The position numbers and the translations under genes are program-made. From Larsenimonas suaedae (lineage in GTDB: Bacteria; Pseudomonadota; Gammaproteobacteria; Pseudomonadales; Halomonadaceae): a stretch of 64,000 bases of DNA. The stretch covers positions 1,116,001-1,180,000 of the forward strand of contig NZ_JAMLJI010000001.1 of the NCBI RefSeq assembly GCF_023712105.1. The letters run 5' to 3'. Below are positions 6,323-51,580 of the stretch, piece after piece. Position 1 is the first letter of the stretch. Each line of letters opens with the position of its first letter. The notes beneath the pieces are model-generated. The model was not told the origin of the DNA and searched no databases. It saw only the letters and a program-made list of their open reading frames with translations.

Positions 6323-7771
6323 ATGGCGACGATCTCAACGAATCTGCTTTCGCTGTCCACCCAACAGCATCAGATGCGTGCACAGAACCAGTTGTCGAAG
6401 GCCATCGAACGACTGTCCACCGGGCAACGCATCAACGCCGCATCCGACGACGCGGCCGGTCAGGCCAAGGCGAATCGCATGACGGCCAACATCAACGCCG
6501 ACCGTCAGATCGGCCGCGGCATCAACGATGGCATCAGCCTTGCACAGACCGCCGAAGGCGGGCTCGACGGCATCAACGGGCTTTTGCAGCGCGCCCGTGA
6601 ACTGGCCGTGCAATCGGCCAACGGCACGCTGTCGGACGATGACCGCGCCGCCATCAACCGGGAGTTTTTCACCCTGCGCGATGAGATCGACCGCATCGCC
6701 GCAGGCACCGAGATATTCGGCAAGACCCCGCTTGCCGGCGAGCCGGAGCTGACCGGCACGCCGCTTGGCAATACGCCTCATGTGGTCGATGTCTTCGACG
6801 ACGGCAGCCAAAGCTATTCATCAGGCGTCAAGGCCATCGCCTACGTGCCGGCCGGGACAACCAATTTCCAGCTGACCATCAACTCCTACAATCAGGATGA
6901 TGACCTGCAGGTGTTCACCGCCGACGGCAAGCACCTGGTGGGTACACCCCTTGAGGGCGCAACGGCTGACTATACCTGGTCTCACAACGGCGTCACCGAT
7001 CGCGCGACCGCCACCAGCCAACTGCTGACCGAGGCCGATGGTTTCGACAGTGGCGCCACCTACGACGACAGTAATTTCGTCGACGCCACCGGCAGCTACA
7101 ACAGCGGCGGCGCGGTGACCAACACCTACAACGGCATGACCATCACCTACACCGGCGATGGCGATCGAACCGCGGCGACCACGGATGGCGAATTCAATAA
7201 CGGCCGCCTCAACGGCTCCGAGGCCTCTCAAACCGTCGAACGGATCAGGGTGGATACCGTCAGCGAAAACCTTCTGCTGTTCGTGTCCGGCGAAGGGTCT
7301 TTCACCGCCAATGCCACCTGGGACACGCTCCCGGAAACCCAGTACGCCAACGGTGAAACACCGTTCAACACCGATACCGAGATCGTCATGAACGCCGATT
7401 ACGGTCAGGCGCTCGACACGCTGACCATCGAATCGACCCCGGCCGACAGCGAGGCCCTCGGCATCGCCGGCACCGCCCTCGACCCGATCGAGAAAGCCCG
7501 CGAGGCCCTTGCCGAGCTGGATTCCGCCATGCTTACCGTCGATGGCTACCGAAGCCAGTACGGCGCGATTCAGAACCGGCTTGAGGGCGCGATGGATGCG
7601 GCCGCGAACCGGGCAACGATTACCGAAGCGGCGCGCTCACGCATCATGGACGCGGACTATGCGGTCGAGACCTCGAACATGACCCGGGCACAGATCGTGA
7701 GCCAGGCGAGTAACGCCATGCTCGCCCAGGCCAATCAGACGCCGGAAGCCATGTTGAGCCTGCTCCGGTAG
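6323..7771 (+). CDS. fliC: Flagellin with unusual central domain
   Basis: Filament protein exported by the flagellar type III apparatus. Both conserved ends are present: N-terminal D0/D1 helices (MATISTNLLSL, LSTGQRINAASDDAAG, residues about 1-140) and C-terminal D1/D0 helices (ADYAVETSNMTRAQIV, ending MLSLLR). The central 250 residues are a Gly/Thr/Asp-rich beta region with a segment near residues 165-215 (VPAGTTNFQLTI, DDDLQVFTADGK) resembling PPC-type beta sandwiches. The ATG at 6323 is chosen over an upstream TTG because flagellins begin MA(T/V)I. No strong Shine-Dalgarno is visible. A sigma-28 promoter precedes it and a hairpin terminator follows. No other flagellar structural gene is adjacent. 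Confidence 0.9.
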   Translation: MATISTNLLSLSTQQHQMRAQNQLSKAIERLSTGQRINAASDDAAGQAKANRMTANINADRQIGRGINDGISLAQTAEGGLDGINGLLQRARELAVQSANGTLSDDDRAAINREFFTLRDEIDRIAAGTEIFGKTPLAGEPELTGTPLGNTPHVVDVFDDGSQSYSSGVKAIAYVPAGTTNFQLTINSYNQDDDLQVFTADGKHLVGTPLEGATADYTWSHNGVTDRATATSQLLTEADGFDSGATYDDSNFVDATGSYNSGGAVTNTYNGMTITYTGDGDRTAATTDGEFNNGRLNGSEASQTVERIRVDTVSENLLLFVSGEGSFTANATWDTLPETQYANGETPFNTDTEIVMNADYGQALDTLTIESTPADSEALGIAGTALDPIEKAREALAELDSAMLTVDGYRSQYGAIQNRLEGAMDAAANRATITEAARSRIMDADYAVETSNMTRAQIVSQASNAMLAQANQTPEAMLSLLR

Positions 7772-7777
7772 CACACG

Positions 7778-7810
7778 CCCGTCCCGGCCTCCCCGGCCGG
7801 GCGGCTTTTT
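7778..7810 (+). terminator. Rho-independent terminator of flagellin gene
   Basis: CCCGGCC (7783-7789) pairs with GGCCGGG (7795-7801) around a TCCCC loop, followed by GCGGC and five T. It begins a few bases after the flagellin stop. Confidence 0.8.
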
Positions 7811-7912
7811 GGCTTTCAAAGCCCGGGGACATGATCGGACACCGCTGTACACCGGCCTCGACGTGACTGCTATCATCGCGCCCCGACCATACGCCATACG
7901 GACGCTGCCACC

Positions 7913-8899
7913 ATGCCGATTCTCAACAGTTCGATGCATCGCCTTGTCGATGCCGACGATACCCTTACTCTGGAACCGGCCTCCGACGAGCAGCCGCTGG
8001 ATAGCCGACTCGACACCCTGCTCAATACGGTTCTGCACGCCTTCAATGGCAAAAGCCGCGGCTTTGGCCACGCCGATACGCCGCCGGCCGACGGTACGCT
8101 TTTGGGCCAGCTTTCACACTACCGCGCCGAGCGCATCGACTTCATGACGCTTTCCACTGAGGTGGGCCGTTCGCTGGTCGCCGCACTCGGCGAACAGCTT
8201 CGAGGCGACGGTTATCTCTGGGTCGTACACTACCGCCATGGCGACACCGAGTACGTGGCCATCATGCAACTGCTTCGTCGTGAGGGGCTTTCGCTTGATG
8301 ACTCGGGCAACCTCACGACGCAAAGCTTGATCAACACCAGCCAGTTGCCGCTTGCCGTACGTGTGGATCTGACCCAATGGGCCCGCGAGGGCAGCCGCAA
8401 TTACGTGGCGTATCTGAAGGCCAGCAAGAAACTCGTCGAGGCTCTGACGCCCTGGATCGGGTGTGAGGAAGGCGCCGATGCCGGTAATGAGACGCGCACG
8501 CTGCTCAAGGCGTTCAGTGATTTTGTCGAGCAGGAATCGTTCGATGACACCCAAAGCCGCGAATCCACCGACGCGGTGGTCAACTACGCAAGCGATCAGG
8601 CCGCTGCGGGCGAGCCGATGGCTCTTGACGATGTTTCCCGGCTGGTCGATGAAACGCGCCCCGAGGCCTTTTTCGACTACATTCGAAACAGCGATTACGG
8701 CCTGTCTCCCGATGTGCCCGCCGACAAGAAGACCATCAATCAGTTCAAGCGCTTTACCGGGCGCGCCTCCGGCGTCTCGATCAGTTTCGACTCGCACCTG
8801 CTCGGCGACAGCATCGAGTTCAACGAGGCCCAGGATCGGCTCATCATCAAGAAAATTCCGGAATCACTAAAAACCCAGTTACTGGACCGCAAACGCTAA
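7913..8899 (+). CDS. yejK: Nucleoid-associated protein NdpA/YejK
   Basis: A 328-residue member of the NA37/YejK family of nucleoid-associated proteins. The N-terminal part has the IHRL-like opening and the family's block around LWVVHYRHGDTEYVAIMQL; the C-terminal part carries FKRFTGRASGVSISFDSHL and the end (IIKKIPESLKTQL) that matches YejK. It has its own start just after a short gap from the flagellin terminator and precedes an unrelated transporter. Role is inferred by family only. Confidence 0.85.
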   Translation: MPILNSSMHRLVDADDTLTLEPASDEQPLDSRLDTLLNTVLHAFNGKSRGFGHADTPPADGTLLGQLSHYRAERIDFMTLSTEVGRSLVAALGEQLRGDGYLWVVHYRHGDTEYVAIMQLLRREGLSLDDSGNLTTQSLINTSQLPLAVRVDLTQWAREGSRNYVAYLKASKKLVEALTPWIGCEEGADAGNETRTLLKAFSDFVEQESFDDTQSRESTDAVVNYASDQAAAGEPMALDDVSRLVDETRPEAFFDYIRNSDYGLSPDVPADKKTINQFKRFTGRASGVSISFDSHLLGDSIEFNEAQDRLIIKKIPESLKTQLLDRKR

Positions 8900-8946
8900 G
8901 CGCCCGCTACGCTGTGTGAATGACCTTTTCACACAGGGAGTACGCC

Positions 8947-10131
8947 ATGCACCGCTCGAACGCCATTGCCCTCGGTGGGGCACTGGCCACCGCGATTTCA
9001 TTTGGCCCGGCGCGCATGGGGTTCGGTCTGTTTCTGCCGCAGTTTCGCGAAGAATTCACGATCTCGACCCAGCAGGCGAGCTTTATTGCCAGCGCCGGCT
9101 TCGCCGGTTTTTTTGTGGCGCTGCTTCTCGCCTCACTTCTGGTCGCGCGCTGGGGCCCGAAGTGCGCGGTAGTGGCCGGCGCCGCGTCGGCTACCCTTGG
9201 CATGGCAATGATCAGCGTGTCGCAGAGCCCGCTGTTTTTAGCCGCAGGCGTGGTCGTCGCCTCGGCAAGTGCCGGCTTTTGCTGGTCACCGTTTAACAAC
9301 GTCGCCCGCCGGGGCGTCGCATCAACCTACCGGAACCGAGCGCTTGCAATCATCAGCACAGGCACCACCGGCGGGATCGCGCTGGCGGGCCTGACTGCGC
9401 TCTGGGTTGCCAGTGCCGATCAGGGCTGGCGCACGGCCTGGGTCTTGTTCTCGCTGGCCGCGCTGGTGGCTGCCCTTGCCAACCTTCGCATCCTGAAGCA
9501 CCTGCCCGACCCGCCCGTGGATGACCCACGCGATGAAGACACCTCGCTCAAGCAGCTGCTCCATAAACGCGGCATGCCGCTCTACATCATCGCGCTGTCG
9601 TTCGGCATGACCAATGGCATTTATCTTTCATTCGCGGTGACCGAGGTCGGTGAGGCTGGCGGCCTACCGGGGCTCAAGGAGGCGCTGTCAGGGCCGGTGC
9701 TCTACATGAGTTTCGGTGTGGCCGGGCTCCTTGGGCTATTTACGGCCGAGCTCAATCAGCGCCTAGGGATTGCCGCTCTGGTCGCGGGCATCTTTCTTGC
9801 CTCTACTGTCTCGCTGGCGCTTATTGGCGTCGCGCCGGCCACGTGGGCGGGGCTTATCGTCTCGGCAGCACTTCAGGGCATGTGCGTGATGATGTTGAGT
9901 GCGATCTATTCCTTCTGGAGCACCAATCTGTTTCCCGCACTGGCAACGCTTGGTTTCACCGCCGTTCTGACCGTGTTCGCGTTCGGAAACATTGTGGGGC
10001 CAATGCTTGCCGGGGCGCTTGAACCGCTGACCGGCATGAGTGGCGTATTTCTGTTGTCGGCGGCCGTCTCGCTGGCTACGGCGCTCGCATTCGTGCTCCG
10101 CCACATTCGCTCGGGCAACGCCGCTGCATAA
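8947..10131 (+). CDS. Major facilitator superfamily transporter
   Basis: A 394-residue integral membrane protein with about twelve hydrophobic segments and MFS loop features (LVARWGPK in loop 2-3, FxPFNN region, a long central loop near residues 185-215). The start at 8947 has GGGAG seven bases upstream; the earlier ATG at 8920 lacks this. The fold resembles the YbfB/CynX type of sugar-phosphate or organic anion permeases, but the substrate cannot be assigned. Confidence 0.8.
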   Translation: MHRSNAIALGGALATAISFGPARMGFGLFLPQFREEFTISTQQASFIASAGFAGFFVALLLASLLVARWGPKCAVVAGAASATLGMAMISVSQSPLFLAAGVVVASASAGFCWSPFNNVARRGVASTYRNRALAIISTGTTGGIALAGLTALWVASADQGWRTAWVLFSLAALVAALANLRILKHLPDPPVDDPRDEDTSLKQLLHKRGMPLYIIALSFGMTNGIYLSFAVTEVGEAGGLPGLKEALSGPVLYMSFGVAGLLGLFTAELNQRLGIAALVAGIFLASTVSLALIGVAPATWAGLIVSAALQGMCVMMLSAIYSFWSTNLFPALATLGFTAVLTVFAFGNIVGPMLAGALEPLTGMSGVFLLSAAVSLATALAFVLRHIRSGNAAA

Positions 10132-10205
10132 GGCGCACGTCCCTTAAACGCCCTGAATCGCAAGAGGATTGGGCTGAGTCAACGCATGATCGTGAGCGCA
10201 CTCGG

Positions 10206-11678
10206 TTATGAAAGCTCGTCACTCACTAGAGTGCAGTTGACGTCTTCAGCCTCATCAGCCATCAGCTTGGCCAGTGCCTGAAGGCACAGTACCGACAGTA
10301 CTTTCTGATGACTTCCACGCCCGATCGAGACCAGTCGCTTGCAGCGCTCGATCGGCGGCGCGCCGGTCTTGTTATCACCCCGCCATTGAATGATGAGGCT
10401 GTCCGAGGGCGCGTCGATGTATTCGATGCGCCGCGTCGTATCGATCATGAACCCGATCAAGAAACGCTCGCAGCGAACCACCAGCACGTGTGAGGCGGGT
10501 TCAGGGGTCACGATGCCCAGCAGCCGACGCAGGTCCACCAAATTGACCGACTGCCCTCGCAGCGACATGCTGCCGACCCAGCCACGCTCGACATCAGCCG
10601 CCGGCAGATACGTCTCCGGCATGGCAATGACCTCCTCGAGCTGATAAAGCGGGGTCACGAACTGCCCCTGCGCCTTGAAATGCATGAACGGAAACCGCCG
10701 CCAGGGCGTATGGCCTATTCCGGAGGGCTGTTCGACACGGGCATACATGCCAGCGATGCCAGTGAGATCGTTTATCTGGGCAAGCCCCGTTTCCGAAACC
10801 AGCAGGGACTCCCCAAGCGACGCGTGAGGCAGCAGTCCCGTAAATAGATCTTGGTCCTGTGAGGAATCGGCCAGAGGCAGAACGGCCGCCTCCTCGAACT
10901 CCACCATACGAATCACCCGGTCGACAAAAATCGCGAAGCGATAGCCATTGACCGCCAATACCACCATCGACTTCCCCTGCTGGCCAGCAGGCGCCCGATA
11001 CCCCAGAAGACGAAGCGGGCTGAACAGCGCAAGCGACGTTCCGCGAAGCTCGACCGTTCCCACAAAGCCCGGAACGTCGATTACCGGCGGATGCACTGTG
11101 GGCCGCGCTTGAATTTCACGCACCATGTGCGATGGCAGGGCAAGCTGCATATCGTGACAGCCGACCAAAAGCGCCTGTGACCGTGTGCTCGCGCCAACAT
11201 GGGCGGACACATCGACGGTGTCCTGCTCGATGGAGGTGACCTGAATGCCCTCGAGCGCCAGCAGCGCATCGACGTCCAGTAGATATACGGGTTCGCCGCT
11301 GTCGGGGTCAGTCAGTGCGGCCGGGGTCAGCGCTGCCGCGGCGGTATCGTCCTGCCCAAGTGGCTCCGGCACCGCATCGACCACGTCCATCACTCGATCG
11401 ACCCGAAGGGCCACCAGCTGACGTTGGTGCTGGAGCACGATCAGCACGGCAGGCCCAGTGGTTGCCGGCAGCGCCAACAGCGCACACAGATCGATCACCG
11501 GCAGTCGAAGTTCACGCAGGCGCACCATGCCAAGCACAAATGGCTGTGCCCGCGGCGCCCGTGTCAATTGGTCGGGCAAGGGCACGATCTCCTGCACGGA
11601 CGCGATCCTGAGCGCCAGGCGACTGCCGCCAACCTCGAACAGACAGAACCGGTCAGGTACCGCCTCTGCACGGCGCAT
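10206..11678 (-). CDS. Triple CheW-domain chemotaxis coupling protein
   Basis: A 490-residue protein consisting of three CheW-like SH3-type modules in tandem (roughly residues 8-145, 165-310 and 330-470). Each contains recognisable CheW features: FEVGGSRLALRIASVQEIVPLP and VLGMVRLRELRLPVIDL in the first, VGTVELRGTSLALFSPLRLLG in the second, GSMSLRGQSVNLVDLRRLLG in the third. It starts one base after the stop of the PAS receptor gene, so the two form one transcription unit and probably one signalling complex linking receptors to a CheA kinase encoded elsewhere. Most CheW proteins have only one such domain. Confidence 0.85.
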   Translation of the reverse strand: MRRAEAVPDRFCLFEVGGSRLALRIASVQEIVPLPDQLTRAPRAQPFVLGMVRLRELRLPVIDLCALLALPATTGPAVLIVLQHQRQLVALRVDRVMDVVDAVPEPLGQDDTAAAALTPAALTDPDSGEPVYLLDVDALLALEGIQVTSIEQDTVDVSAHVGASTRSQALLVGCHDMQLALPSHMVREIQARPTVHPPVIDVPGFVGTVELRGTSLALFSPLRLLGYRAPAGQQGKSMVVLAVNGYRFAIFVDRVIRMVEFEEAAVLPLADSSQDQDLFTGLLPHASLGESLLVSETGLAQINDLTGIAGMYARVEQPSGIGHTPWRRFPFMHFKAQGQFVTPLYQLEEVIAMPETYLPAADVERGWVGSMSLRGQSVNLVDLRRLLGIVTPEPASHVLVVRCERFLIGFMIDTTRRIEYIDAPSDSLIIQWRGDNKTGAPPIERCKRLVSIGRGSHQKVLSVLCLQALAKLMADEAEDVNCTLVSDELS

Positions 11679-40567: not shown

Positions 40568-42289
40568 ATGGCGGAAACACGCGCGCCCACCGAACTCACA
40601 CGGGCCTTGCGCTCCTGTCGAGGCAGTTTCCTCGCCGTTGGGTTGTTCAGCCTGTTCATCAATGTGCTGATGCTGGTGCCTGCGTTTTACATGCTGCAGG
40701 TCTATGACCGGGTCATTACCACACGAAGCCTCGACACGCTCTCGATGTTGACGCTGATCGTGGTGTTTTTCTTTCTGGTGATGGGTGGGCTCGAGCTTGT
40801 GCGCTCACGCATGATGGTGCGGGTGGGCAACCGGCTCGAGGCCCTGATCGGCGAGCGTCTGTTTGACGCCATGTTCCAGAAAAGCCTGTCGGCGCCCGGT
40901 GCCCAAAGCGCTCAGCCTCTGAGCGACATCACCACGCTTCGTCAGTTTCTGACCGGTAACGCCCTCTTCGCCTTTTTCGACGCCCCCTGGATTCCGATCT
41001 ACATCGCGGTGCTGTTTCTGTTCGATGTCTGGTTCGGCGTATTCGCCATTATCGCGGTGCTTGTGCTTCTGGGGCTGGCCCTTGCCAACGAGTATTCCAC
41101 CCGAACGCTTTTGAACAAGGCCGGAAGCGACCACATCGCGGCGCAGCAGCTCGCCAACGCCAACCTCGCCAACGCAGACGTCGTGCACGCCATGGGGATT
41201 CTGCCCGGGCTTCGAGCGCGCTGGGGTGAGCGTCACCGGGCGTATCTGATCAAGCAGTCCCGCGCCAGCGACCGCGCCGGTTTTTTGATCAACGCGTCCA
41301 AGGTCCTGCGGCTGATGTTCCAGTCGATGATTCTGGGGCTCGGTGCGCTTTTGGTGCTCGAGGGGGAACTGAGCCCGGGCATGATGATCGCCGGCTCGAT
41401 TCTGATGGGCCGGGCGCTGGCCCCGATCGATCAGATGCTTGGGGCATGGAAAGGCTTCATCGCTGCCCGCTCGTCTCATGAGCGACTGCAAACGTTGCTC
41501 GAGACCTCGCCAAACCCGCGCGAGCGCATGGCACTGCCGGCGCCAAAGGGCGCGCTGCGCCTCGAGGCGATTACGGCGGTGCCACCGGGCGCGGCCAAGG
41601 CAGCCCTTCGCGGTGTGACGTTTGCGCTCGAGCCGGGGGAGCATCTGGGTGTGCTCGGCCCCAGCGCCTCGGGCAAATCGACCCTTGCCCGCGTCGCGCT
41701 CGGTCTCTGGCCGAGCCAGGCCGGCAAGGTGCGCCTCGACGGTGCCGACATCACCCAGTGGGACCGCGACGCCCTCGGCCCACACATCGGCTATCTGCCG
41801 CAGGACATCGAACTCTTCGACGGCACCATCAGCGACAACATCGCCCGCTTCGGCGACATCGACCCGGCGGGTGTGGTGGAAGCCGCCAAGCGCGCCGGGG
41901 TACACGAGATGATTCTCGAACAACCGGAGGGGTATGACACCTGGATTTCCTCGAGCCGCGGGGCGCTGTCCGGTGGCCAGCGTCAGCGCCTCGGCCTTGC
42001 TCGCGCGCTTTATGGGCGGCCTGCACTGGTGGTGCTCGATGAACCCAACGCCAACCTCGATGAACGCGGCGAACAGGCGCTTGTCGAGGCGATTGGCTGG
42101 CTCAAGCGCGAGGGCGTCACGCTGTTAGTGATCTCCCACCGCCACAGCCTGGTTGCCCACGTCGATAAACTGCTGATGCTGAAAGACGGTCAGGTGGGGT
42201 TGTTCGGCCCCCGCGATGACGTTGTCAGACACATCAAACAAAAGCGTCAGGCGGCGTCCACACCGGCCCAGCCCGGAGACCGCGCATGA
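40568..42289 (+). CDS. Type I secretion system permease/ATPase
   Basis: ABC exporter of the PrtD/AprD class that moves unfolded proteins from cytosol to exterior with a HlyD adaptor and TolC. The 573-residue chain has an N-terminal membrane domain of six helices without a C39 peptidase domain, followed by the ATPase domain: GPSASGKST (Walker A), YLPQDIELFDGT (Q-loop), LSGGQRQRLGLARAL (signature), VVLDEPNANLD (Walker B). The next gene overlaps its stop by four bases. No TolC gene is present in the window. Confidence 0.92.
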   Translation: MAETRAPTELTRALRSCRGSFLAVGLFSLFINVLMLVPAFYMLQVYDRVITTRSLDTLSMLTLIVVFFFLVMGGLELVRSRMMVRVGNRLEALIGERLFDAMFQKSLSAPGAQSAQPLSDITTLRQFLTGNALFAFFDAPWIPIYIAVLFLFDVWFGVFAIIAVLVLLGLALANEYSTRTLLNKAGSDHIAAQQLANANLANADVVHAMGILPGLRARWGERHRAYLIKQSRASDRAGFLINASKVLRLMFQSMILGLGALLVLEGELSPGMMIAGSILMGRALAPIDQMLGAWKGFIAARSSHERLQTLLETSPNPRERMALPAPKGALRLEAITAVPPGAAKAALRGVTFALEPGEHLGVLGPSASGKSTLARVALGLWPSQAGKVRLDGADITQWDRDALGPHIGYLPQDIELFDGTISDNIARFGDIDPAGVVEAAKRAGVHEMILEQPEGYDTWISSSRGALSGGQRQRLGLARALYGRPALVVLDEPNANLDERGEQALVEAIGWLKREGVTLLVISHRHSLVAHVDKLLMLKDGQVGLFGPRDDVVRHIKQKRQAASTPAQPGDRA

Positions 42290-43635
42290 GCCTCGACCGC
42301 GAAGACCACACCATACCTACGTCATCATCCTCCGCCGAGACGCTGCCCACCGACGGCCGGCGCGCACGCCTTGTGGGGTTTCTGATTCTGGCGCTTGCCT
42401 TTGGCGGCTTCGGCGCGTGGGCCGGGCTTGCCAACCTGTCGGTGGCGGTGGTCGCAAGCGGCACCGTGTCGGTGGACTCGTTCAAGAAAACGATCCAGCA
42501 CCTCGAAGGCGGCATCGTCTCCCGGATTCTGGTTGACGACGGCGACCGCGTTGATGAAGGCGACCCTCTGATCGTGCTCGACGACACCCAGCCCCGAAGC
42601 CAATTCGACATAGAGCAAACACGCTTTTTCATCGCACGCGCGCAGGAAGCGCGGCTTCTGGCCGAGCAGCAGCAGGCCGAGCGGGTCGATTTTCCGCCCC
42701 CCCTTACTCGCCTTGCGGGCGAACGCCCTCACTTCGCTCAGATCCTCGAGGCTCAGCGGCACCTGTTCACATCACGGCGGCATTCGCTTGCCAGTGAACT
42801 TGGCGCGCTCGAGGAGCAAAGCCAGCAGTACCGAGAGCAGATCGCGGGGCTCGAGCAAGGTGTCGCCATCACATCACGGCGCAGCCGCTCGTTAAGCGCC
42901 GAAGCCGACGACTACCGGGCGCTGTTCAAGGAAGGACTTGGCAACAATCAGCGCGTGCGCGAGCTTGACCGAGAGATCCTCGCGCTTCAGGCCGAGCGCG
43001 CCAACGCCCGTGCCGAAATTGCCCGGCTTGGCTCGCGCATCAGTGAAAACCGCGCACGCATCGAAACCCGCCGACAGGACTATCAAAGTGAACTCGGCGA
43101 GCAGCTTCGTGGCGCTCAGGCCGACAGCGCCGATGCCCGTCAGCGCATGCTGGCACTCAAGGATCAGCTCGAGCGCACCGAGGTTCGCTCGCCGGTGGCG
43201 GGCACAGTGGTGGGCCTTGCGCTTCGAACCCGGGGCGCGGTGATCACACCCGGCCAGACGCTCATGAGCATCGTGCCGGACACCGATGGCTTTTTCATCG
43301 AGGCCCGCATTCCTGCCGGTGACATCGACAACATCTACCCGGGCCAGCCCGCCGACATTCGCTTCAGTGCCTTCAATCAGCATCGGGCGCCGGTCATCGA
43401 TGGCCGGGTGGCCCACGTCTCGGCGGACAGCTTCGAGGACGAAGCCACAGGCGCGCGCTACTACACCGCCCGAATCCAGGTATCACGCGAGGGCAAAACC
43501 CAGATGACCGAGTCGATGACGCTGCTTTCGGGCATGCCCGCAGAGGTCATGATCAAGACCGGCGAAAAGACGCTGTTTGAGTATTTGAGTCAGCCTGTCG
43601 TCGATATGCTGAGCCGCGCCGTGCGTCAGGACTGA
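42286..43635 (+). CDS. HlyD-family type I secretion adaptor
   Basis: Periplasmic membrane-fusion subunit linking the ABC permease to TolC. One membrane helix near residues 28-48, a lipoyl-type half motif near 60-100, a long coiled coil (about 100-285, rich in Glu/Arg/Gln) and a second beta-barrel half (RSPVAGTVVGLALRTRGAV and following). The C-terminal motif (LRSG-like MPAEVMIKTGEKT) is typical of HlyD/PrtE. ATGA overlap with the permease shows translational coupling. Confidence 0.92.
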   Translation: MSLDREDHTIPTSSSSAETLPTDGRRARLVGFLILALAFGGFGAWAGLANLSVAVVASGTVSVDSFKKTIQHLEGGIVSRILVDDGDRVDEGDPLIVLDDTQPRSQFDIEQTRFFIARAQEARLLAEQQQAERVDFPPPLTRLAGERPHFAQILEAQRHLFTSRRHSLASELGALEEQSQQYREQIAGLEQGVAITSRRSRSLSAEADDYRALFKEGLGNNQRVRELDREILALQAERANARAEIARLGSRISENRARIETRRQDYQSELGEQLRGAQADSADARQRMLALKDQLERTEVRSPVAGTVVGLALRTRGAVITPGQTLMSIVPDTDGFFIEARIPAGDIDNIYPGQPADIRFSAFNQHRAPVIDGRVAHVSADSFEDEATGARYYTARIQVSREGKTQMTESMTLLSGMPAEVMIKTGEKTLFEYLSQPVVDMLSRAVRQD

Positions 43636-43770: not shown

Positions 43771-44823
43771 TCACGCGAACAGGAACTCTTCCGGGCCCAT
43801 GGCGTAGCCGAAATCGCCGATTGCGAGGCCATCGTCGTACTTCGGCACGCCAACCAGCTCGACGAACTGAATCCCCTGATCGGTGTTGAGCATGATTTCG
43901 CCGGGCTGGGCGCTGATGTCGTCGTAATCGAGCGGCTGGCCGTCCGAGCCGTTGATTCCAGTCACGTCGATGCGATCAACGCCAAGCTCAAAGTTGGTGA
44001 TGGTGCCGCCCTGCCACGCACCGTCGCTTTCAAACACGAAGCTGTCGGCGGAGTCATCGGTACCGCTGACGCGCCCATCGACGACCACCTCGTCATACGG
44101 GCCGGTCGGGGCTGGCGGACGCTCGGAGATGTAATACTGACGGTCAGACAAGGAATTTACACCGCCGGACACATCCTCGAGCAGCAGAGTAAAGTCATTT
44201 TCATCAAGGCCAGCCGGGCCGGTGTCTCGGTAGAGATAGATATCATCACCCTGCATGACCGGCATCAGCGCATCGCCGCTGTCCTGTTCGCCGGCAAGCA
44301 TCAGCGCCTCTTCAGCGCTCTGGCCTTCCTCGGCGACGACCGCGTAATCGAAATCAAGGTTATCGAACGACTGCACGATCTCATCATCAACGAACAGCGT
44401 GTCTTTTGCGGCATCGAAACCGGAAATCGTGTCGATGGCATCGCCGCCATTGCCATAGCGCGAGGCATCGCCTGCGACGCGGATCACATCGACGCCGTTG
44501 TCATCACCGCCGAGCATCACGGTTTCCTGCACATCGTTTGATGCGGTGTACTCGAGCCCACCGGAAAGGCCAGTGGCATCGACGTGCGTCACGGCGGCGG
44601 TGTCGTCGGCGCTGTTATCCCAGTCAATGCGACCGTTGCCGGTAAGCTCGAGTGACTCGAGCGCTTCGCCATTCACGTTCGCATCGAGAGTCTCACCGGA
44701 TTTGGCCCGGTCATCGGCGAACTGCGCCGCAAGCGCAAGCGAGGTTACGTCATCGGGCAACGTGAACGTGACGTCTCCGCCTTCAGTGAACGTATAGGAT
44801 TGGGTTTTACTGGTGTACGGCAT
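43771..44823 (-). CDS. Putative type I secreted acidic protein
   Basis: I do not recognise a family with certainty. The 350-residue product is strongly acidic, has no N-terminal signal peptide, and contains repeat-like beta segments (LTGNGRIDWDNS, THVDATGLSGGLEYTA) followed by degenerate RTX-like stretches (LGGDDNGVDVIRV, NGGDAIDTISGFDAAKDTLFV). The C-terminus ends in an acidic then hydrophobic tail (GPEEFLFA), like secretion signals of PrtD-type systems. It converges on the T1SS pair with its own terminator, and AAGGGA lies eight bases before the ATG. All this suggests it is the cargo of the neighbouring exporter; the function after export is unknown. Confidence 0.65.
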   Translation of the reverse strand: MPYTSKTQSYTFTEGGDVTFTLPDDVTSLALAAQFADDRAKSGETLDANVNGEALESLELTGNGRIDWDNSADDTAAVTHVDATGLSGGLEYTASNDVQETVMLGGDDNGVDVIRVAGDASRYGNGGDAIDTISGFDAAKDTLFVDDEIVQSFDNLDFDYAVVAEEGQSAEEALMLAGEQDSGDALMPVMQGDDIYLYRDTGPAGLDENDFTLLLEDVSGGVNSLSDRQYYISERPPAPTGPYDEVVVDGRVSGTDDSADSFVFESDGAWQGGTITNFELGVDRIDVTGINGSDGQPLDYDDISAQPGEIMLNTDQGIQFVELVGVPKYDDGLAIGDFGYAMGPEEFLFA

Positions 44824-44929
44824 GGTGTCAGTCCCTTGAGTGGTCTTGTCCAACTGCAGCAAACGCTCGCCTTCTCCCGCCTCGCACTTGCCGCGTGCCC
44901 TGAGTGGGCGGGCTATAATCTACATTATC

Positions 44930-45087: not shown

Positions 45088-45555
45088 ATGGACGACATTG
45101 ACTGGGCGCAGGTGGGCGCGCTCATTGACCAGCTCTACAGCGCATCGGATGAACTGGAAGCACTGTTTCCCGGGCGTAAATTCACCCTCGATGGCCACCT
45201 GGTCGGAAGCGTCGGTGAGGTGGTCGCGGCGTACATGTTTGCGTTGACGCTGAACCCCGCTTCTACCCTTGGCCATGACGCCATCGCCCCGGACGGGCGC
45301 CAGGTCGAGATCAAACTGACGCAGGGCAAGACGGTCGCGCTTCGTCACCCGCCCGAGCACCTGCTGGTGCTCGCCCGCCCCAAGGGCGGCGCGCTCTCCG
45401 TGATCTACAATGGCCCCGGCGAGATTGCCTGGGACGCGGCAGGAAAAAGACAAGCCAACGGCCAGCGCCCGATCGGGCTTGGGAAGTTGAAGGCGCTGGC
45501 GGCGGGATTAAAGGACGAGGAAAAGTTGGTGCTGGTGAGGGAGGCACCGGTTTGA
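45088..45555 (+). CDS. DUF6998 protein, PD-(D/E)XK nuclease-like
   Basis: A 155-residue protein resembling the DUF6998 family. The core has a nuclease-like order: SVGEVVAAYMF (Glu), GHDAIAPDGRQVEIKL (Asp then E-x-K), the E-D-(E/D)xK arrangement of the restriction-endonuclease fold. No partner methylase is adjacent. It may act on DNA or be a degenerate relative; the active-site reading is from pattern alone. Confidence 0.6.
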   Translation: MDDIDWAQVGALIDQLYSASDELEALFPGRKFTLDGHLVGSVGEVVAAYMFALTLNPASTLGHDAIAPDGRQVEIKLTQGKTVALRHPPEHLLVLARPKGGALSVIYNGPGEIAWDAAGKRQANGQRPIGLGKLKALAAGLKDEEKLVLVREAPV

Positions 45556-45587: not shown

Positions 45588-45887
45588 CTAATTTGTACCC
45601 TGCTCCGCACTCAATGCGGCCTGCACTGAAGGTCGCTCCGTGACGCTTACCATGTATGCCGATAACGCCGGCCATCCATCAAGCTGTATATCGAAGAACC
45701 GACACCAGCCAAGCACGGTAAAGAGATAAGCATCTGCGATACTGAAATACTCACCCATCAAATACTGGTTTTGAGTGCGTAGCTCACGCTCCAACACATC
45801 AAAACGCGTACTTGCCTTGTTGATAAAAAGCACCCGAGCTTGATCAGAAAGTGCCGTATTGAATAGCGTCGCCAACCCATTGCGATT
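45588..45887 (-). pseudogene. Truncated glutathione S-transferase (3' half)
   Basis: The frame matches the C-terminal half of GstA-type transferases (FSIADAYLFTVLGWCRFF, ERPSVQAALSAE) but the N-terminal thioredoxin-like half, with the glutathione site, is missing. The matching sequence begins around 45885, exactly where the 1263-residue gene's end region begins, so the loss and the arrival of the large gene appear linked. Any start here would be a TTG at 45875. No first half of the gene is found on the far side of the islet. Confidence 0.8.
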
Positions 45888-45901: not shown

Positions 45902-48900
45902 TTAGGAACGCCAGCGTTCACCTACAGCGGCATGCTCATCCTCTCGACGAGCTTCCCGTTCATACTCCTTCGCAATGGATATAAGGCTTTGCGACAAGCG
46001 GGGATAGGAGCTGCCGTATCTAGCAGCCAATTCTCGATAATGCTCTGCAAGTCTGCGCTCTTGCTCTCCGCCATCGTAGGGGCTGCGCGTGGTTACACCT
46101 CGTGCATTTCGGACCCCCATACAGAACCGCTCCCTTAGTCCAGCGCATTCAGAGCGATCTAGATAATCCAAGATGACGTCAGGCAACCAGTCATCCCATG
46201 GCCGTCTCCTCGCCATTCGTGCCAGCAAAGCCCCAAAATGGATTTCAGCTACTTCCTTGCGGTCAGCATCCGCCGCAAGTCGAAGGGCGCTCTCTGCCCA
46301 TGCGGTGAATTCATCTGGAGACACTACGCCATCTTCATCGTAGCCGGGAACTCTTTTCCAACCTTCCAGAGAGTGATAAGCCAGCTCTGCAAAAAACTTG
46401 CGCCTCTCCGCCGATAGCTTTTCTCGCTCGGGTTCATCCGCTCCATCGCGCCGGTGATATTGCCAGCAGAGCAACTCAACAAAGAGATTTGGATCACGCG
46501 CAAGCTGTCGGTGCAAAGCCAGCGTTCGCTTGTGATCTCGATGACCGTATGAGCACAAGAGCGTGACGAAGGGCAGTTCTAGGTTGGCGATTTGGTCATC
46601 GGAGATCGCTTCGTCTTCATCGAGGAGCTGAAACACCTCATCTAGGTTGTACGAACGTGGAAAAGGCCCATCCACTTCCTCGCCGCGAGCAATAGCTTGT
46701 AGCATATCCAGCCAACAGTTGGCTCGCAGCTTGTTCCTCCACAGAGAAACGGCTGAGAACGCTGATCTCGGTCGCTGATATTCAAGAAGCTTTGTAACGG
46801 CGTACTCCACTTCGTCGGATGGCGTGTCATCCCAAATATGAATTGATGCCGAATTCCAAAACGCAGAAGCCACGTTTTCGCCCAAACTTTCTGCCACCTG
46901 CCAGCCAATTGAACGACCAGGAAGATGTTCGGCAAATCTCAGGCGCTCCACTTCACTGTTCAGAACTCCTTGGGCCTCCAGGCCAGCCACAACTGAGGCA
47001 AGGTCGATCCATCCTGCACTCCATAGAAGTTGCCGCAGAAAAGCATCGGATTGATCATTTGCATCGGTGCGCAGCGCAGCCGAGACCCAGTGGATCGCAG
47101 TTTCCACTGGCGCATCTTGCGGGACCAAGACTTGAGCCACCAGTTCGGGTTGCTTCACGCTAAGCGCAAACGGAAGAACCGCTTGATCTCCCAATTGCTC
47201 CCCGATTTCATCGATTGCGTTGCGGCGGCGCTCTTCGACGAGTGCGCTTCGCTCCTGCCATGATAAGCGCCCATTTCCTTCGTCTTCCACCAGCGCACGC
47301 CACTCGACGTGGGAATTTTCAAACAGCCAACGGTGGCGAGCAGTCGGAGACTGAGGGGACAAAGCCTCTTCCATACGCCGAAGCGCGTCTGCCAACTGTT
47401 CGTCCTCTTCACCTTCCTGATAAGCACGAAGAACATCGCGCCGACGCAGGTTGTGCCGAAGATCAGCTTTGTCCTCATCGGTTGCTGTCGCTGACCAGCT
47501 CTCGACTTCCATGACCAAGCGAGACAGGTCATCAGGATGAATACGTGTCGCAACTTCTAACAGGTGTTCAAGCTCCAACTTTTCAAATGGAGCCAAGTCG
47601 AGCAGTAGGCGGCTGGCTTCGACCGCGGCTGCGCGGACATCCGCATCTGTCGGTGACGGCACTTCTGCATTCAGTGCTCGCCATTGCGGCCTCGCGGTGC
47701 GTGAAGCGAAATTTGGGCCACCTCCTGGAAGAAGAGAGATGCAGACGTCCATCACAGCATGCCGAAACTGCGCGGACAAGCGCCGTAAGACAGTCATCCT
47801 TTCCGCAGCACTGAGAGCGGTGGCAGGCAGCCAAGCCCTGAACAGAGAACGGGCGGTAGATTTCGGCGAGTTTGACCAATTGTCTTCCACCTCCAGACGG
47901 CGAAGGCCAAAAACAATCTCTGCGACACGAGAAAAGTGGACCGGGTGCCAAGCCAAAAGCTCAAGCGCCCAAAGCAAATTGGTCCGCAAGCACTCGCCAC
48001 TCACCAAGCCTTCAGTGGTTCCCATGATGGCGCGTATGGCAGGTTCTGGCTCTCTAAGTTCAGCTTCAAGGCAGTCAAGGAACGCAGATGGAGATGCCTC
48101 CGCCAATGTTCGTAGGTGCCCCCGAATAGAAAGCCAACGTTCTTGGTCAGCACCTTGCATCAGGGACCGAACGACTTGCGCGGCACGGTATGAAAGGTCA
48201 ACTCCCAACCTATCACCGCAGATTTCTGCACCATGAACGGATAGAATGCACAATGCATCGCCGAGACCGGAAAGCAGGGCGCCCGAAAAACTTCGCGCAT
48301 GACCCAAAACATTGGCCATGTACCACTGATCTTGAGGTAGGTCTAAGGCGGGGTCTCTATCGCCCAGCAACTCCGGCAAGAGTTGAAAGAAACGGTCCAG
48401 ATCGTCTCGATCTATGTAAGGACCTACAGCAAAAAGCGCGTCGATTTGTGATACAACGACATTCACATGCCCATAGCGCGCAATTGGTGCGTCGTTCAGA
48501 GCGAGCAGTTCGTCTCGAACTGGTTCTACTTCACCATCGCGAAAATCACCTAATAGCTGGAGAATTGTGCTGTCATCCAGGTTCTCGCGCTCGACCCAAG
48601 AGCCTGCCAATGCAAACGGGAGAACACTTTTTGCTGCTGCACGATCTCTGACCCAACTTGGCCGCCGAACTTCAGGATCGCCTGAGAGCTGGCGCCGCAA
48701 TACGGGAACAGAATGGCCGACCTTGATAGCGAGGTTATCCGCGTCATCGCGCGACAGCCCCATGCTCTCAAGTTCAGCGCGAAAGGTTTCTGAGGGCACG
48801 TGGGAAAGCAGCAGCGCCTCCCGGACGTCTAGACGACCCTTGGGATAGGCACGGACAATAGTCAAATTCCGCCGATCACCAAAGTCCAACTCCTCCCCAT

Positions 48901-49693
48901 CTTCGACATCCGCAACGACAATAAGGTGGTTTGGGCTCGTAGGAATTCTGACATCGCGAGATGTGGCAATAACTGTCGTATCAAGAAGATCGAGGGCATC
49001 GGCCTCGATCATTGTCGCAACGACAAATGCGACGGCCTCCCCTCTATCGTCAGCTTGAACCGGGACTATTTGCTCTCGGTCGCGCAGTTTCTGCAACAAC
49101 ACGCCCTGCTCGTTATGCCGCCGGGAAGAAACAAGCTTGATAGATAATGGCGGCACCGAAGCTGTCGCCCAGCTATTCCACCATTCGAGAGGTGTTTTCA
49201 GACCAGGCGATGCAACACCTAGCTTTTCACTCAACCAGCGTGACGTAGCAGGTGCTTCTTCCAGCCAAGTTTCAAGATCTATAGCATCGTATGCTTTAAC
49301 GGTCGCCCAATCGTTTTCACCACGTCGTTCTTCAAGCCAAGCTTCTTTCCCGCTCCATCTCCTCGGCGTCACGAAAACGAATGCGCTATTCTCGCGCTGC
49401 TCTCGCGGCGTTTCTTCAGTTCTCTTTCGATAGTCGCCGTCGGCTTTACTCCGAGGATCTACGTTGCAACCCATTTCCCATACACTTCGGCCTTCCGGTA
49501 CCCAGGCAGTTCCGGCTTTACATTCCGTTTGCCCGTCAAGCCCAGGTAAATCGACCGCTTCGTTTCCGGGAAAGCGCATTGAGTTAAGGGATTCCGTGGT
49601 CTCCCTGATCAGTCGACGAACAAGTATTGGTAGGTTACTACGACATTCGTGGCGGTCTGCCCAATGGCGTATAACAGTTTCGTCAATCGACAT
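45902..49693 (-). CDS. 1263-residue protein with N-terminal nuclease-like domain; candidate defence protein
   Basis: I cannot name this family. Residues about 40-160 look like a restriction-endonuclease-type domain: DLPGLDGQTECKAG (Asp53, Glu57-x-Lys59), SVWEMG (Glu73), a lysine at 83 and the strand AFVFVTPRRW. Residues about 200-345 resemble the core of a STAND-type NTPase (strands IVPVQA, HLIVVADVED, LTIVRAY; a helical lid ending HSVPVLRRQL) but no P-loop is visible. The remaining 900 residues are helical, Leu/Ala/Glu-rich repeats without membrane segments. This order recalls Avs-like anti-phage sensors. The gene is alone, lower in GC than neighbours, and preceded by a very AT-rich leader. 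GAGG lies five bases before the ATG. Confidence 0.6.
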   Translation of the reverse strand: MSIDETVIRHWADRHECRSNLPILVRRLIRETTESLNSMRFPGNEAVDLPGLDGQTECKAGTAWVPEGRSVWEMGCNVDPRSKADGDYRKRTEETPREQRENSAFVFVTPRRWSGKEAWLEERRGENDWATVKAYDAIDLETWLEEAPATSRWLSEKLGVASPGLKTPLEWWNSWATASVPPLSIKLVSSRRHNEQGVLLQKLRDREQIVPVQADDRGEAVAFVVATMIEADALDLLDTTVIATSRDVRIPTSPNHLIVVADVEDGEELDFGDRRNLTIVRAYPKGRLDVREALLLSHVPSETFRAELESMGLSRDDADNLAIKVGHSVPVLRRQLSGDPEVRRPSWVRDRAAAKSVLPFALAGSWVERENLDDSTILQLLGDFRDGEVEPVRDELLALNDAPIARYGHVNVVVSQIDALFAVGPYIDRDDLDRFFQLLPELLGDRDPALDLPQDQWYMANVLGHARSFSGALLSGLGDALCILSVHGAEICGDRLGVDLSYRAAQVVRSLMQGADQERWLSIRGHLRTLAEASPSAFLDCLEAELREPEPAIRAIMGTTEGLVSGECLRTNLLWALELLAWHPVHFSRVAEIVFGLRRLEVEDNWSNSPKSTARSLFRAWLPATALSAAERMTVLRRLSAQFRHAVMDVCISLLPGGGPNFASRTARPQWRALNAEVPSPTDADVRAAAVEASRLLLDLAPFEKLELEHLLEVATRIHPDDLSRLVMEVESWSATATDEDKADLRHNLRRRDVLRAYQEGEEDEQLADALRRMEEALSPQSPTARHRWLFENSHVEWRALVEDEGNGRLSWQERSALVEERRRNAIDEIGEQLGDQAVLPFALSVKQPELVAQVLVPQDAPVETAIHWVSAALRTDANDQSDAFLRQLLWSAGWIDLASVVAGLEAQGVLNSEVERLRFAEHLPGRSIGWQVAESLGENVASAFWNSASIHIWDDTPSDEVEYAVTKLLEYQRPRSAFSAVSLWRNKLRANCWLDMLQAIARGEEVDGPFPRSYNLDEVFQLLDEDEAISDDQIANLELPFVTLLCSYGHRDHKRTLALHRQLARDPNLFVELLCWQYHRRDGADEPEREKLSAERRKFFAELAYHSLEGWKRVPGYDEDGVVSPDEFTAWAESALRLAADADRKEVAEIHFGALLARMARRRPWDDWLPDVILDYLDRSECAGLRERFCMGVRNARGVTTRSPYDGGEQERRLAEHYRELAARYGSSYPRLSQSLISIAKEYEREARREDEHAAVGERWRS

Positions 49694-49948
49694 ACTGACC
49701 TCTTAAACTCGAAGTTATCTTTCAATCCAGCATCAATATTTTATTAACCAAACGCAAATTTCACAGAAAGGCTAAATTTTCTTAATAGCCATTATTGAAA
49801 ATATTATCTATCATTTTTTGAATTTCTCGCTAAAAAAAACTACACAGGCATCATGTCGCATTACCTCCCCTTAACCAAATAAACATCAGCTTAGTTGTCA
49901 CTCCTTAGCAATTATTTTTAAATAATTTCTAAGTATTTTTAAAATTAT
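49694..49948. other. AT-rich leader region of the large islet gene
   Basis: About 255 bases with markedly low GC (long A and T runs) between the 1263-residue gene and the guaA terminator. On the minus strand it contains AAGGGGAGG (49872-49864) followed by a 16-codon frame (49861-49811). No tRNA, integrase or clear flanking direct repeat is visible. Its composition differs from the rest of the window, which supports foreign origin. Confidence 0.6.
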
Positions 49949-50005: not shown

Positions 50006-51580
50006 TCACTCCCACTCAATCGTCGCGGGCGGCTTGCTGCTGACGTCATAGGTCACCCGCGAGACCCCGCTGATCTCGTTGATGATGCGGTTGGAGACCT
50101 TCTCCAGAAGCTCATACGGCAGGTGCGCCCAGCGGGCGGTCATGAAGTCGATGGTTTCGACCGCGCGAATGGCGATGACCCACTCGTAGCGGCGGCCGTC
50201 ACCGACCACGCCGACAGATTTCACCGGCAGGAACACCGCGAACGCCTGGCTGGTCTTGTGGTACCAGTCGAAGTTATGCAGTTCCTGAATGAAGATGGCG
50301 TCGGCTTCGCGGAGGATGTCGGCGTATTCCTTTTTGACTTCACCGAGGATGCGCACGCCAAGGCCCGGCCCGGGGAACGGGTGGCGATAGACCATGTCGT
50401 ACGGCAGGCCGAGCTCGAGGCCGAGCTTGCGCACTTCGTCCTTGAAGAGTTCCCTGAGCGGCTCGACCAGTTTGAGCTTCATGGTCTCCGGCAGGCCGCC
50501 GACGTTGTGGTGCGACTTGATCACGTGCGCCTTGCCGGTTTTCGAGGCGGCGGACTCGATCACGTCGGGGTAGATGGTGCCCTGGGCGAGGAACTCGACG
50601 CCGTCGATCTTGGCGGCTTCACGGTCGAACACGTCAATAAAGGTGTTGCCGATGATCTTGCGCTTGGCTTCGGGGTCGTTGACGCCTTCAAGCTTGGTCA
50701 GGAACTCGTCTTCGGCATCGACACGAATCACCCGCACGCCCATGTGGGAGGCGAAGGTGTCCATCACCTGGTTGCCTTCGTCCTTTCTGAGAAGACCATT
50801 ATCGACGAACACGCAGGTGAGCTGATCGCCAATGGCCTTGTGCAAAAGCGCCGCGACCACCGAGGAATCTACCCCGCCGGAGAGGCCGAGCAGAACATGA
50901 CGGTCACCGACCTGTTCGCGCACGCGCTCGGAGAGGTCTTCGATGATCTGCGCGGGCGTCCAGAGCTGCTCGGCCTGACAGATTTCGAGCACGAAGCGCT
51001 CGAGGATGCGCTGGCCTTGCAGGGTGTGGGTCACTTCGGGGTGGAACTGCACGCCGTAGAAGCGTTTTTCCGCCCACGTCATCGCCGCGATGGGGCAGGT
51101 CGGGGTGGAGGCCGTGACCGTGAAGGTCTCGGGGGCGCGGGCGACCTTGTCGCCGTGGCTCATCCACACATCCAGCATGGCGTTGCCGTCGTCGGCGATG
51201 TGGTCCTTGATGCCGTCGAGCAGTTCGTCACCGGCGATGACCTCGACCTGGGCGTAGCCGAATTCACGCTTTTCGGAGCCTTCGGTGGCGCCGCCGAGCT
51301 GCTCGGCCATGGTCTGCATGCCGTAGCAGATGCCGAACACCGGAAGGCCAAGTTCGAACACGCACTCGGGGGCGCGGGGGGAATCAAGCTCGGAGACCGA
51401 TTCCGGGCCGCCGGAGAGGATGATGCCGTTGGGGTTGTACTCGCGAATCTCGTCTTCGGTGATGTCGAAGGCGCGCACTTCGGAGTACACACCGAGTTCG
51501 CGCACGCGACGGGCGATCAGCTGGGTGTACTGGGAGCCGAAATCGAGGATCAGGATCTTGTGGGAGTGAATGTCTGTCAT
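50006..51580 (-). CDS. guaA: GMP synthase (glutamine-hydrolysing)
   Basis: Last step of GMP synthesis: XMP + ATP + glutamine to GMP. The 524-residue protein has the class I amidotransferase domain (residues about 9-205; nucleophile Cys in GICYGMQ, catalytic His/Glu in QFHPEVTH) and the ATP-pyrophosphatase domain with the P-loop SGGVDSS. The C-terminal dimerisation domain ends KPPATIEWE, as in all GuaA. It follows guaB on the same strand after 114 bases, the usual guaBA operon. Confidence 0.97.

Follow-up and report, generated by a model that had tools for sequence, protein, structure and literature searches.

A predicted Avs-like protein with a replaced Walker A motif, encoded by a single mobile gene in Larsenimonas suaedae

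In this paper we describe a protein of 1263 residues from Larsenimonas suaedae, whose gene stands alone between guaA and a gene remnant in a stretch of 64,000 nucleotides (contig NZ_JAMLJI010000001.1, positions 1,116,001 to 1,180,000). We call this whole stretch the window. The protein is predicted to combine a nuclease-like head, a middle part that resembles a STAND nucleoside triphosphatase (NTPase) and a long alpha-solenoid tail, and in all 75 aligned sequences of its family the lysine of the Walker A motif, or P-loop, has been replaced. The explanation that we favour, and consider fairly probable, is an Avs-like anti-phage sensor-effector with a pseudo-NTPase switch, encoded by a single gene that moves horizontally.

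The gene is an intact open reading frame (ORF) of 1263 codons on the minus strand, with an ATG start and the Shine-Dalgarno-like sequence AAGAGG five bases upstream. An earlier description made from the letters alone, which we call the sequence-only reading, had reported one very large frame with its own Shine-Dalgarno sequence and a GC content below that of its neighbours. Both observations hold: the GC content is 54.5% (50.8% at third codon positions), and that of the whole window is 60.6%. The ratio of nonsynonymous to synonymous substitution rates (dN/dS) of the whole gene is 0.15-0.16 against five close homologues; against two further homologues the synonymous rate was saturated. This is therefore a maintained, selected gene and not a chance frame, and as a whole it is under purifying selection. 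In PHROGs the protein is matched from end to end by phrog_18693 (E 7.9e-235), which is the same family and is listed with unknown function. Pfam and NCBIfam gave no match to the protein at E <= 1, and scans for promoters and terminators around the gene did no better than shuffled sequences.

The three parts of the protein are seen in predicted structures. For residues 1-440, AlphaFold2 (AF2) was run with 74 relatives and gave a model with a mean predicted local distance difference test score (pLDDT) of 92.8 and a predicted template modelling score (pTM) of 0.91. The order of strands and helices in residues 1-160 is that of a restriction-type core, and the sheet that follows is like that of a nucleotide-binding domain (NBD), with a helical lid and then a winged helix after it. 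In a Foldseek search with these 440 residues the best-matching solved structures were Avs3 (E 4.6e-7) and Avs4 (E 6.7e-6), entries 8dgc and 8dgf, followed by the AVAST type 5 (Avs5) filament (E 1.6e-4). With VIA, a second aligner, residues 165-440 or so matched CED-4 (Z 11.8), plant NLRs and Avs5, and about residues 1-160 matched R.BspD6I (Z 9.2), FokI (Z 9.0), MspJI (Z 8.7) and EcoT38I (Z 8.6). Residues 335-1263 were modelled as an alpha-solenoid (pLDDT 87.5, pTM 0.67). CAND1, importins and SF3b, which were among the top Foldseek rows for the C-terminal part, were rejected as relatives, since we take these as generic matches between HEAT-type solenoids. The models thus predict a PD-(D/E)XK core fold at the N-terminus and a STAND fold with an N-terminal effector-type domain and C-terminal repeats. 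Avs proteins have the order nuclease, STAND and repeat sensor, the same as in the focal protein. The nuclease-like head, the STAND-like core and lid, the long helical tail and the Avs-like order had all been proposed in the sequence-only reading, together with a Foldseek search of an AlphaFold model as a check; both a nuclease and an NTPase-like fold were predicted, so the fold gives no ground for refuting it. By sequence, a search of the PDB with the single focal protein found no chain at E <= 1, and a profile search of the PDB matched 23 sequences, comprising helix-turn-helix (HTH) proteins and marginal matches, with no Avs chain among them.

A second property of the family is the replacement of the Walker A motif. 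A single conserved pattern was used to scan genome_contigs, a collection of 84,980 species, and it returned 330 stretches, 326 of which are relatives. The best 80 loci of these 326 were kept, and all counts given here for 80 loci, 74 relatives or 75 rows rest on them. Six loci (L030, L058, L073, L087, L094 and L097) were left out of the alignment because their frames were short or ran off a contig, which leaves 75 rows: 74 relatives with full-length frames and the focal protein. L058 is still part of the neighbour survey described below, and L028 was kept among the 74 with its head unaligned before about residue 159. An hhalign comparison of the family with 14 PD-Lambda-4_A and P-loop relatives gave a collinear match from about residue 16 to residue 416 (E 2.6e-9, Prob 96.2). 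In this profile alignment Ala214-Val221 lies opposite the Walker A motif GLSGVGKT, with Ala220 at the catalytic lysine. Position 220 is alanine in 66 sequences, valine in four, glycine in four and serine in one, and lysine in none of the 75, while the adjoining Glu219 is invariant (75/75). A regular expression for P-loop-like strings hit residues 161-345 in three of the 75 sequences, at position 307, which is not the P-loop site. As far as the alignment can tell, the family lacks the Walker A motif that STAND proteins such as the Avs sensors use. The sequence-only reading had found no such motif and had suggested a sensor of related origin in which nucleotide binding was lost or replaced; the first point extends to all 75 sequences, and the second fits Ala220 and the invariant Glu219. 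This part of the protein is under selection, as dN/dS of residues 161-345 is 0.07-0.09 against four close homologues. Two of these comparisons give this segment the smallest value of the seven segments, and the other two give a smaller one (0.04) for residues 346-500.

The nuclease motif is altered as well. The Q-x-K of PD-Lambda-4_A aligns in hhalign with Glu73-x-Gly75 of the focal protein, and position 75, where the canonical nuclease lysine is expected, is glycine in 70 of the 75 sequences, serine in four and a gap in one. Asp53 is found in 75/75 sequences, and Glu73 and Lys83 each in 74/75. If L028 is omitted these become 74/74 for Asp53 and for Glu73 and 73/74 for Lys83, the exception being L095 with glutamine at position 83. 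The relatives that share these nearly invariant residues come from several phyla. In the window the codons lie on the minus strand at 49535-49537 (Asp53), 49475-49477 (Glu73) and 49445-49447 (Lys83). By its sequence the canonical Asp...(Asp/Glu)-x-Lys motif is incomplete, with Asp53 and Glu73 present and the lysine replaced by Gly75, and Lys83 on the next helix may substitute for it. Of the catalytic residues put forward in the sequence-only reading, Asp53, Glu73 and Lys83 are retained, but Glu57 and Lys59 were rejected, being present in 46/75 and 4/75 sequences only.

The closest known relative of the family appears to be PD-Lambda-4_A (PADLOC PDLC03991), a reported anti-phage protein. It is similar in having about 1280 residues, an N-terminal restriction-type motif, a STAND-type middle and a long C-terminal module, and profile homology extends over both halves; for the C-terminal half, 11 family members aligned with one PD-Lambda-4_A protein over 637 columns (Prob 94.4, E 8.8e-8). 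It differs in having its own P-loop (GLSGVGKT in L018) and the Q-x-K nuclease motif, whereas in the focal family the Walker A motif is replaced and E-x-G is found with the conserved Lys83. PADLOC reports weak PD-Lambda-4_A matches for eight of the 14 members aligned first, including a single one for the focal protein, which covers residues 528-642 and falls in the middle of PD-Lambda-4_A. Across 97 near genomes four were matched by the model: L018 and L019 are true members with a P-loop, and two are weakly matching members of the focal family, one of them in the focal genome itself. In the class, 13 of 369 genomes were matched, again with the focal genome included. PD-Lambda-4 is a two-gene system with a B partner; in the focal family no neighbour family occurs at more than nine of 75 loci, and PD-Lambda-4 B itself was not searched for. 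The system is reportedly to be credited to Vassallo et al. 2022. PMC10952713 lists a P-loop for PD-Lambda-4, a feature that the focal sequences lack at this site. Our best placement of the family is as a lineage sister to the PD-Lambda-4_A-like proteins, with its P-loop replaced. The direction of change was probably loss, because the P-loop is a general feature of STAND proteins. Tentatively, and aware that it may well be wrong, we suggest a wider scenario in which a STAND ancestor with a P-loop gave rise to a non-nucleotide scaffold, with an invariant glutamate by the lysine site, and to a PD-(D/E)XK nuclease with a relocated lysine, across a widespread NLR-like lineage.

Other STAND proteins can be compared in the same way. 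The NB-ARC modules of CED-4 and plant NLRs share with the focal middle part the arrangement of NBD, helical domain and winged-helix domain, and bind ADP/ATP through their P-loop. Avs3 and Avs4 use their Walker A motif, unlike the focal protein that resembles them. Among phage proteins, terminase and portal are examples of what Avs sensors recognise. Avs5 has a similar STAND core (9nc9, 9jap) but has its own Sir2 effector and needs Walker A, as replacing Gly362 or Lys363 by alanine abolished immunity according to PMC12931631. In the openly available literature we found no paper on an anti-phage STAND protein with a degenerate Walker A motif, on a single-gene system combining Avs, PDDEXK and HTH features, or on accessions of this family.

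The location of the gene points to mobility. Upstream, 312 bp of AT-rich DNA separate it from guaA, and downstream lies a remnant of a glutathione S-transferase (GST) gene, so that it has no operon partners, as had been noted before. The GST gene is considered truncated because a genome of the same genus (contig L128) has an intact GST of 216 residues. The sequence-only reading had described a truncated housekeeping-type neighbour; truncation is right (about 95 of 216 residues), but a GST is not strictly housekeeping. PMC7775301 describes the 3' end of guaA as an integration hotspot and reports GAGTGGGA as the core of guaA-specific islands. We searched the window around the insertion for a further copy of the guaA 3' end or of the attachment (att) core and found neither; the element has therefore eroded or come by another route. 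Islands flank guaA in a genome of the same genus (G001), in G007 and in E. coli HS, and in the last two they hold a family member: in G007 between guaA and a guaA fragment, and in E. coli HS within an integrase-bearing island between guaA and yfgI. In G001 guaA is followed by an integrase, a stretch of 18 kb, a partial guaA 3' end, a dCTPase-type defence gene and the intact GST. The defence gene, at the edge of the island (L128:956-2665), encodes a 569-residue cytidine deaminase-type protein that matches the PADLOC dCTPase model with 447 bits. In another genome of the same genus (G002) the guaA flank carries dCTP-deaminase-like (DCD) and TIR-like (ThsB model) genes; they are among four genes after guaA (L123:123-2236) that possibly form an undescribed defence cluster. 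The order guaA-guaB-xseA in the window is as in E. coli, which suggests a host outside the rhodobacteria. Homologues were not found in a conserved housekeeping operon, which the sequence-only reading had named as evidence against itself, and the repeated neighbourhood of guaA is that of an integration hotspot.

The taxonomic distribution gives the same picture. The gene is present in two of 58 near genomes, its own included, and of 398 genomes examined in the phylum, 10 have a full-length match, these two among them. According to their profile match ranges, the other 101 of 111 reported genomes of the phylum comprise one with a copy in two pieces, one with a fragment and the rest with about the first 120 profile positions, the HTH part. 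Among full-length copies, those of Rhodobacterales (for example Leisingera and Brevirhabdus) are the closest, with 93.4-93.6% DNA identity, and a partial copy in Roseovarius has 94.4% identity over 2.3 kb. The similarity of the Rhodobacterales copies to the window stops at the ORF (45910-49702). Four loci (L023, L024, L026 and L027) share about 4.0 kb, that is the ORF with some 150 bp and 50-80 bp, in otherwise different surroundings. Twenty-three plasmid records were found for the family, and a megablast search of the focal gene against plasmids found nothing. A scan of viral_contigs with the single focal protein returned no relative, and one record named as a phage, with a partial match, is an unverified faecal scaffold of 6.6 kb. 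Of 5426 E. coli genomes, 10 carry a protein closely related to the Enterobacter member, and four of these 10 are HS or its derivatives. The HS member (NC_009800.1:2653015-2657112, L139) has 1365 residues and is annotated as 'HigA family addiction module antitoxin'; it adjoins a PIN-domain gene and traJ/trbJ/trbL genes. We conclude that the family is widespread and moves horizontally, with no partner gene conserved.

The N-terminus varies within the family. An extension of at least 75 residues with the look of an HTH is found at the N-terminus of 45 of the 74 relatives; by eye 41 of these are HigA-like and four belong to another XRE type, and Pfam HTH_3 was found in seven of the 14 members aligned first. 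The focal protein, its nearest kin and altogether 29 of the 74 relatives have no such extension, and on a quick tree of the 75 rows this label changes three times. Among the loci matched in the class, five distant relatives of PD-Lambda-4_A with a P-loop (L107, L108, L109, L110 and L112) combine, by eye, an HTH, a restriction-type motif (QIKTG or QVKAG) and the P-loop in one protein, and Pfam confirmed the HTH of L109; the HTH is therefore not special to the family without a P-loop. The C-terminal module is also found elsewhere. A Shewanella plasmid protein (L014, 7125-10688) joins it to an N-terminus of another kind, for which Pfam gave no match, and a Buttiauxella protein of 924 residues (L015), encoded directly after a gene for a 106-residue HetE-N protein (7549-10643 for the two), is nearly this module alone. 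Neither protein contains a P-loop string. The N-terminus of the Shewanella protein looks by eye like a candidate Cap4-like domain, and Abi and superinfection-exclusion genes lie upstream of it.

A survey that reached up to 4 kb from each of 75 loci, or less where the flanks were shorter, as at several loci, showed no conserved partner gene; the most frequent family, at nine loci, is that of tyrosine integrases. Adjacent genes of defence type in PADLOC include AriA, JetD, GajA, AbiEi, AbiLi, Old and methyltransferases. CD-NTase- and patatin-like genes were seen by eye beside L025, and a plasmid-borne relative is accompanied by Abi and SIR2 genes. Such a survey had been proposed in the sequence-only reading with enrichment in defence islands in mind. 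Defence-type neighbours were indeed found, but enrichment relative to distant genes was not established: PADLOC gave 262 defence models for 131 adjacent ORFs and 157 for 131 distant ones (a random 131 of 254), these counts being redundant and both sets holding defence families.

From these observations we infer phage sensing, nuclease activity, independence of nucleotide and autoregulation by the HTH, which would work together as follows. Before infection the solenoid of about 900 residues would keep the protein switched off; its binding of an infection signal, which is probably a phage protein, would end this inhibition. With its P-loop replaced, the STAND module would be unable to bind nucleotide in the usual Walker A manner, and the pseudo-NTPase would pass the change on through assembly instead of ADP/ATP exchange. 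The nuclease, with Asp53, Glu73 and Lys83 as the stand-in, would then cut DNA, so that the infection is stopped or the cell killed. Relatives with the N-terminal HTH probably repress their own gene as well.

Three other explanations have to be weighed. The protein might be an Avs-like defence protein whose head is not a nuclease, the fold merely binding DNA and protection coming from sequestration, assembly or transcriptional shut-off. The change of the canonical lysine to glycine or serine in 74 of the 75 sequences, with one gap, agrees with this, and so does the nearly headless protein L015. However, Asp53, Glu73 and Lys83 are almost invariant across several phyla and would not be needed for DNA binding alone, and we regard this explanation as rather unlikely. 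An ordinary STAND protein that is switched by nucleotide, with ATP bound at a site not recognised as such, would account for the high model confidence of the retained fold and for the purifying selection on residues 161-345. It would have to do so with Gly-Lys of Walker A changed to Glu followed by Ala, Val, Gly or Ser in 75/75 sequences, when the corresponding pair is essential in Avs5 (PMC12931631), and we think it unlikely. Quite improbable, in our view, is a self-regulating maintenance or addiction protein of plasmids and islands, with no phage sensor, whose HTH represses its own promoter and whose loss is toxic. The HigA-like extensions, the 23 plasmid records and the names under which the E. 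coli member and one from Shewanella are annotated speak for it. But the focal protein and 29 of the 74 relatives have no HTH extension, and the focal protein no Pfam match; where present, the extension is only about 100 of some 1365 residues. No conserved HigB-like partner is seen among the neighbours of the 75 loci, and the fold is of Avs type.

Several points weigh against the anti-phage sensor-effector that we favour. Its roles in phage defence and as a nuclease are computational predictions. With glycine in place of the canonical lysine the head could be inactive or merely bind DNA, and nucleotide may possibly be bound through a different site. The pseudo-NTPase region, selected as it is, is not specially conserved at long range: over the 75 sequences its mean top-residue frequency is 0.45 (residues 161-345), compared with 0.58 for residues 1-160, 0.52 for 346-700 and for 1101-1262, and 0.40-0.42 for 701-1100. 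The sequence match to PD-Lambda-4_A is weak, with 17.6 bits against the 2226.8 bits that the model, for which PADLOC shows no cut-off, gives on the true member L018. The hidden Markov model of the family, with E-values that refer to a set of a few dozen ORFs, missed seven of the 15 loci L018, L019 and L102-L114 at E <= 10 (L104, L106, L107, L108, L110, L111 and L112). The HTH of many relatives and the HigA name at NCBI are compatible with a role in regulation or addiction, too. Finally, PADLOC families are found 6.5-10 kb from the family loci too, and therefore we do not claim enrichment of defence genes among the immediate neighbours.

Table 1. Positions in the window of the gene, its predicted parts and the flanking features.
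Feature	Position	Strand	Basis
Focal coding sequence, 1263 residues (nuclease-like head, pseudo-STAND middle, alpha-solenoid tail)	45902..49693	-	ORF, PHROGs, dN/dS
Shine-Dalgarno-like AAGAGG	49699..49704	-	sequence; ends 5 bases before ATG
Predicted PD-(D/E)XK-like core, residues 1-160	49214..49693	-	AF2, VIA, conservation, hhalign
Predicted STAND-type NBD, helical domain and winged helix without Walker A, residues ~165-415	48449..49201	-	AF2, Foldseek, VIA
P-loop-equivalent stretch, residues 214-221 (Glu219 invariant, 220 never Lys)	49031..49054	-	hhalign, 75-sequence counts
Predicted alpha-solenoid, presumed sensor, residues 335-1263	45905..48691	-	AF2, Foldseek, hhalign
guaA 3' end including GAGTGGGA, core of guaA-specific islands (50010-50017)	50006..50029		sequence; core from PMC7775301
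GST remnant, ~95/216 residues, cut at insertion edge	45588..45875	-	intact homologue L128:3753-4403

Two further genes of the window lie beyond the GST remnant. One (45088-45555, plus strand) encodes a DUF6998 protein (E 5.2e-47) with the string VEIKLT and a weak PADLOC mREase_II match, possibly a restriction-type nuclease, and is kept beside the GST in a genome of the same genus. The other (43771-44862, minus strand) encodes an acidic protein of 363 residues with a sub-threshold Peptidase_M10_C match. It lies near an ABC transporter and HlyD-like pair (40568-43635, by eye) and is possibly secreted by that pair.

STAND and NLR sensors are usually understood as switches operated by nucleotide. 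A selected family from several phyla, with a predicted STAND fold and no Walker A lysine in 75/75 sequences, provides a natural test of the nucleotide's role. Its natural replacement of Walker A is of note because the alanine changes in Avs5 abolish immunity (PMC12931631). If the ATP switch has indeed been abandoned, nothing but ligand binding would drive activation, and one and the same C-terminal sensor would serve with different N-termini. The replaced ATP-binding motif thus raises the question of how the protein gets switched on, and the full-length member in E. coli HS, currently labelled as an addiction antitoxin, makes this question directly approachable.

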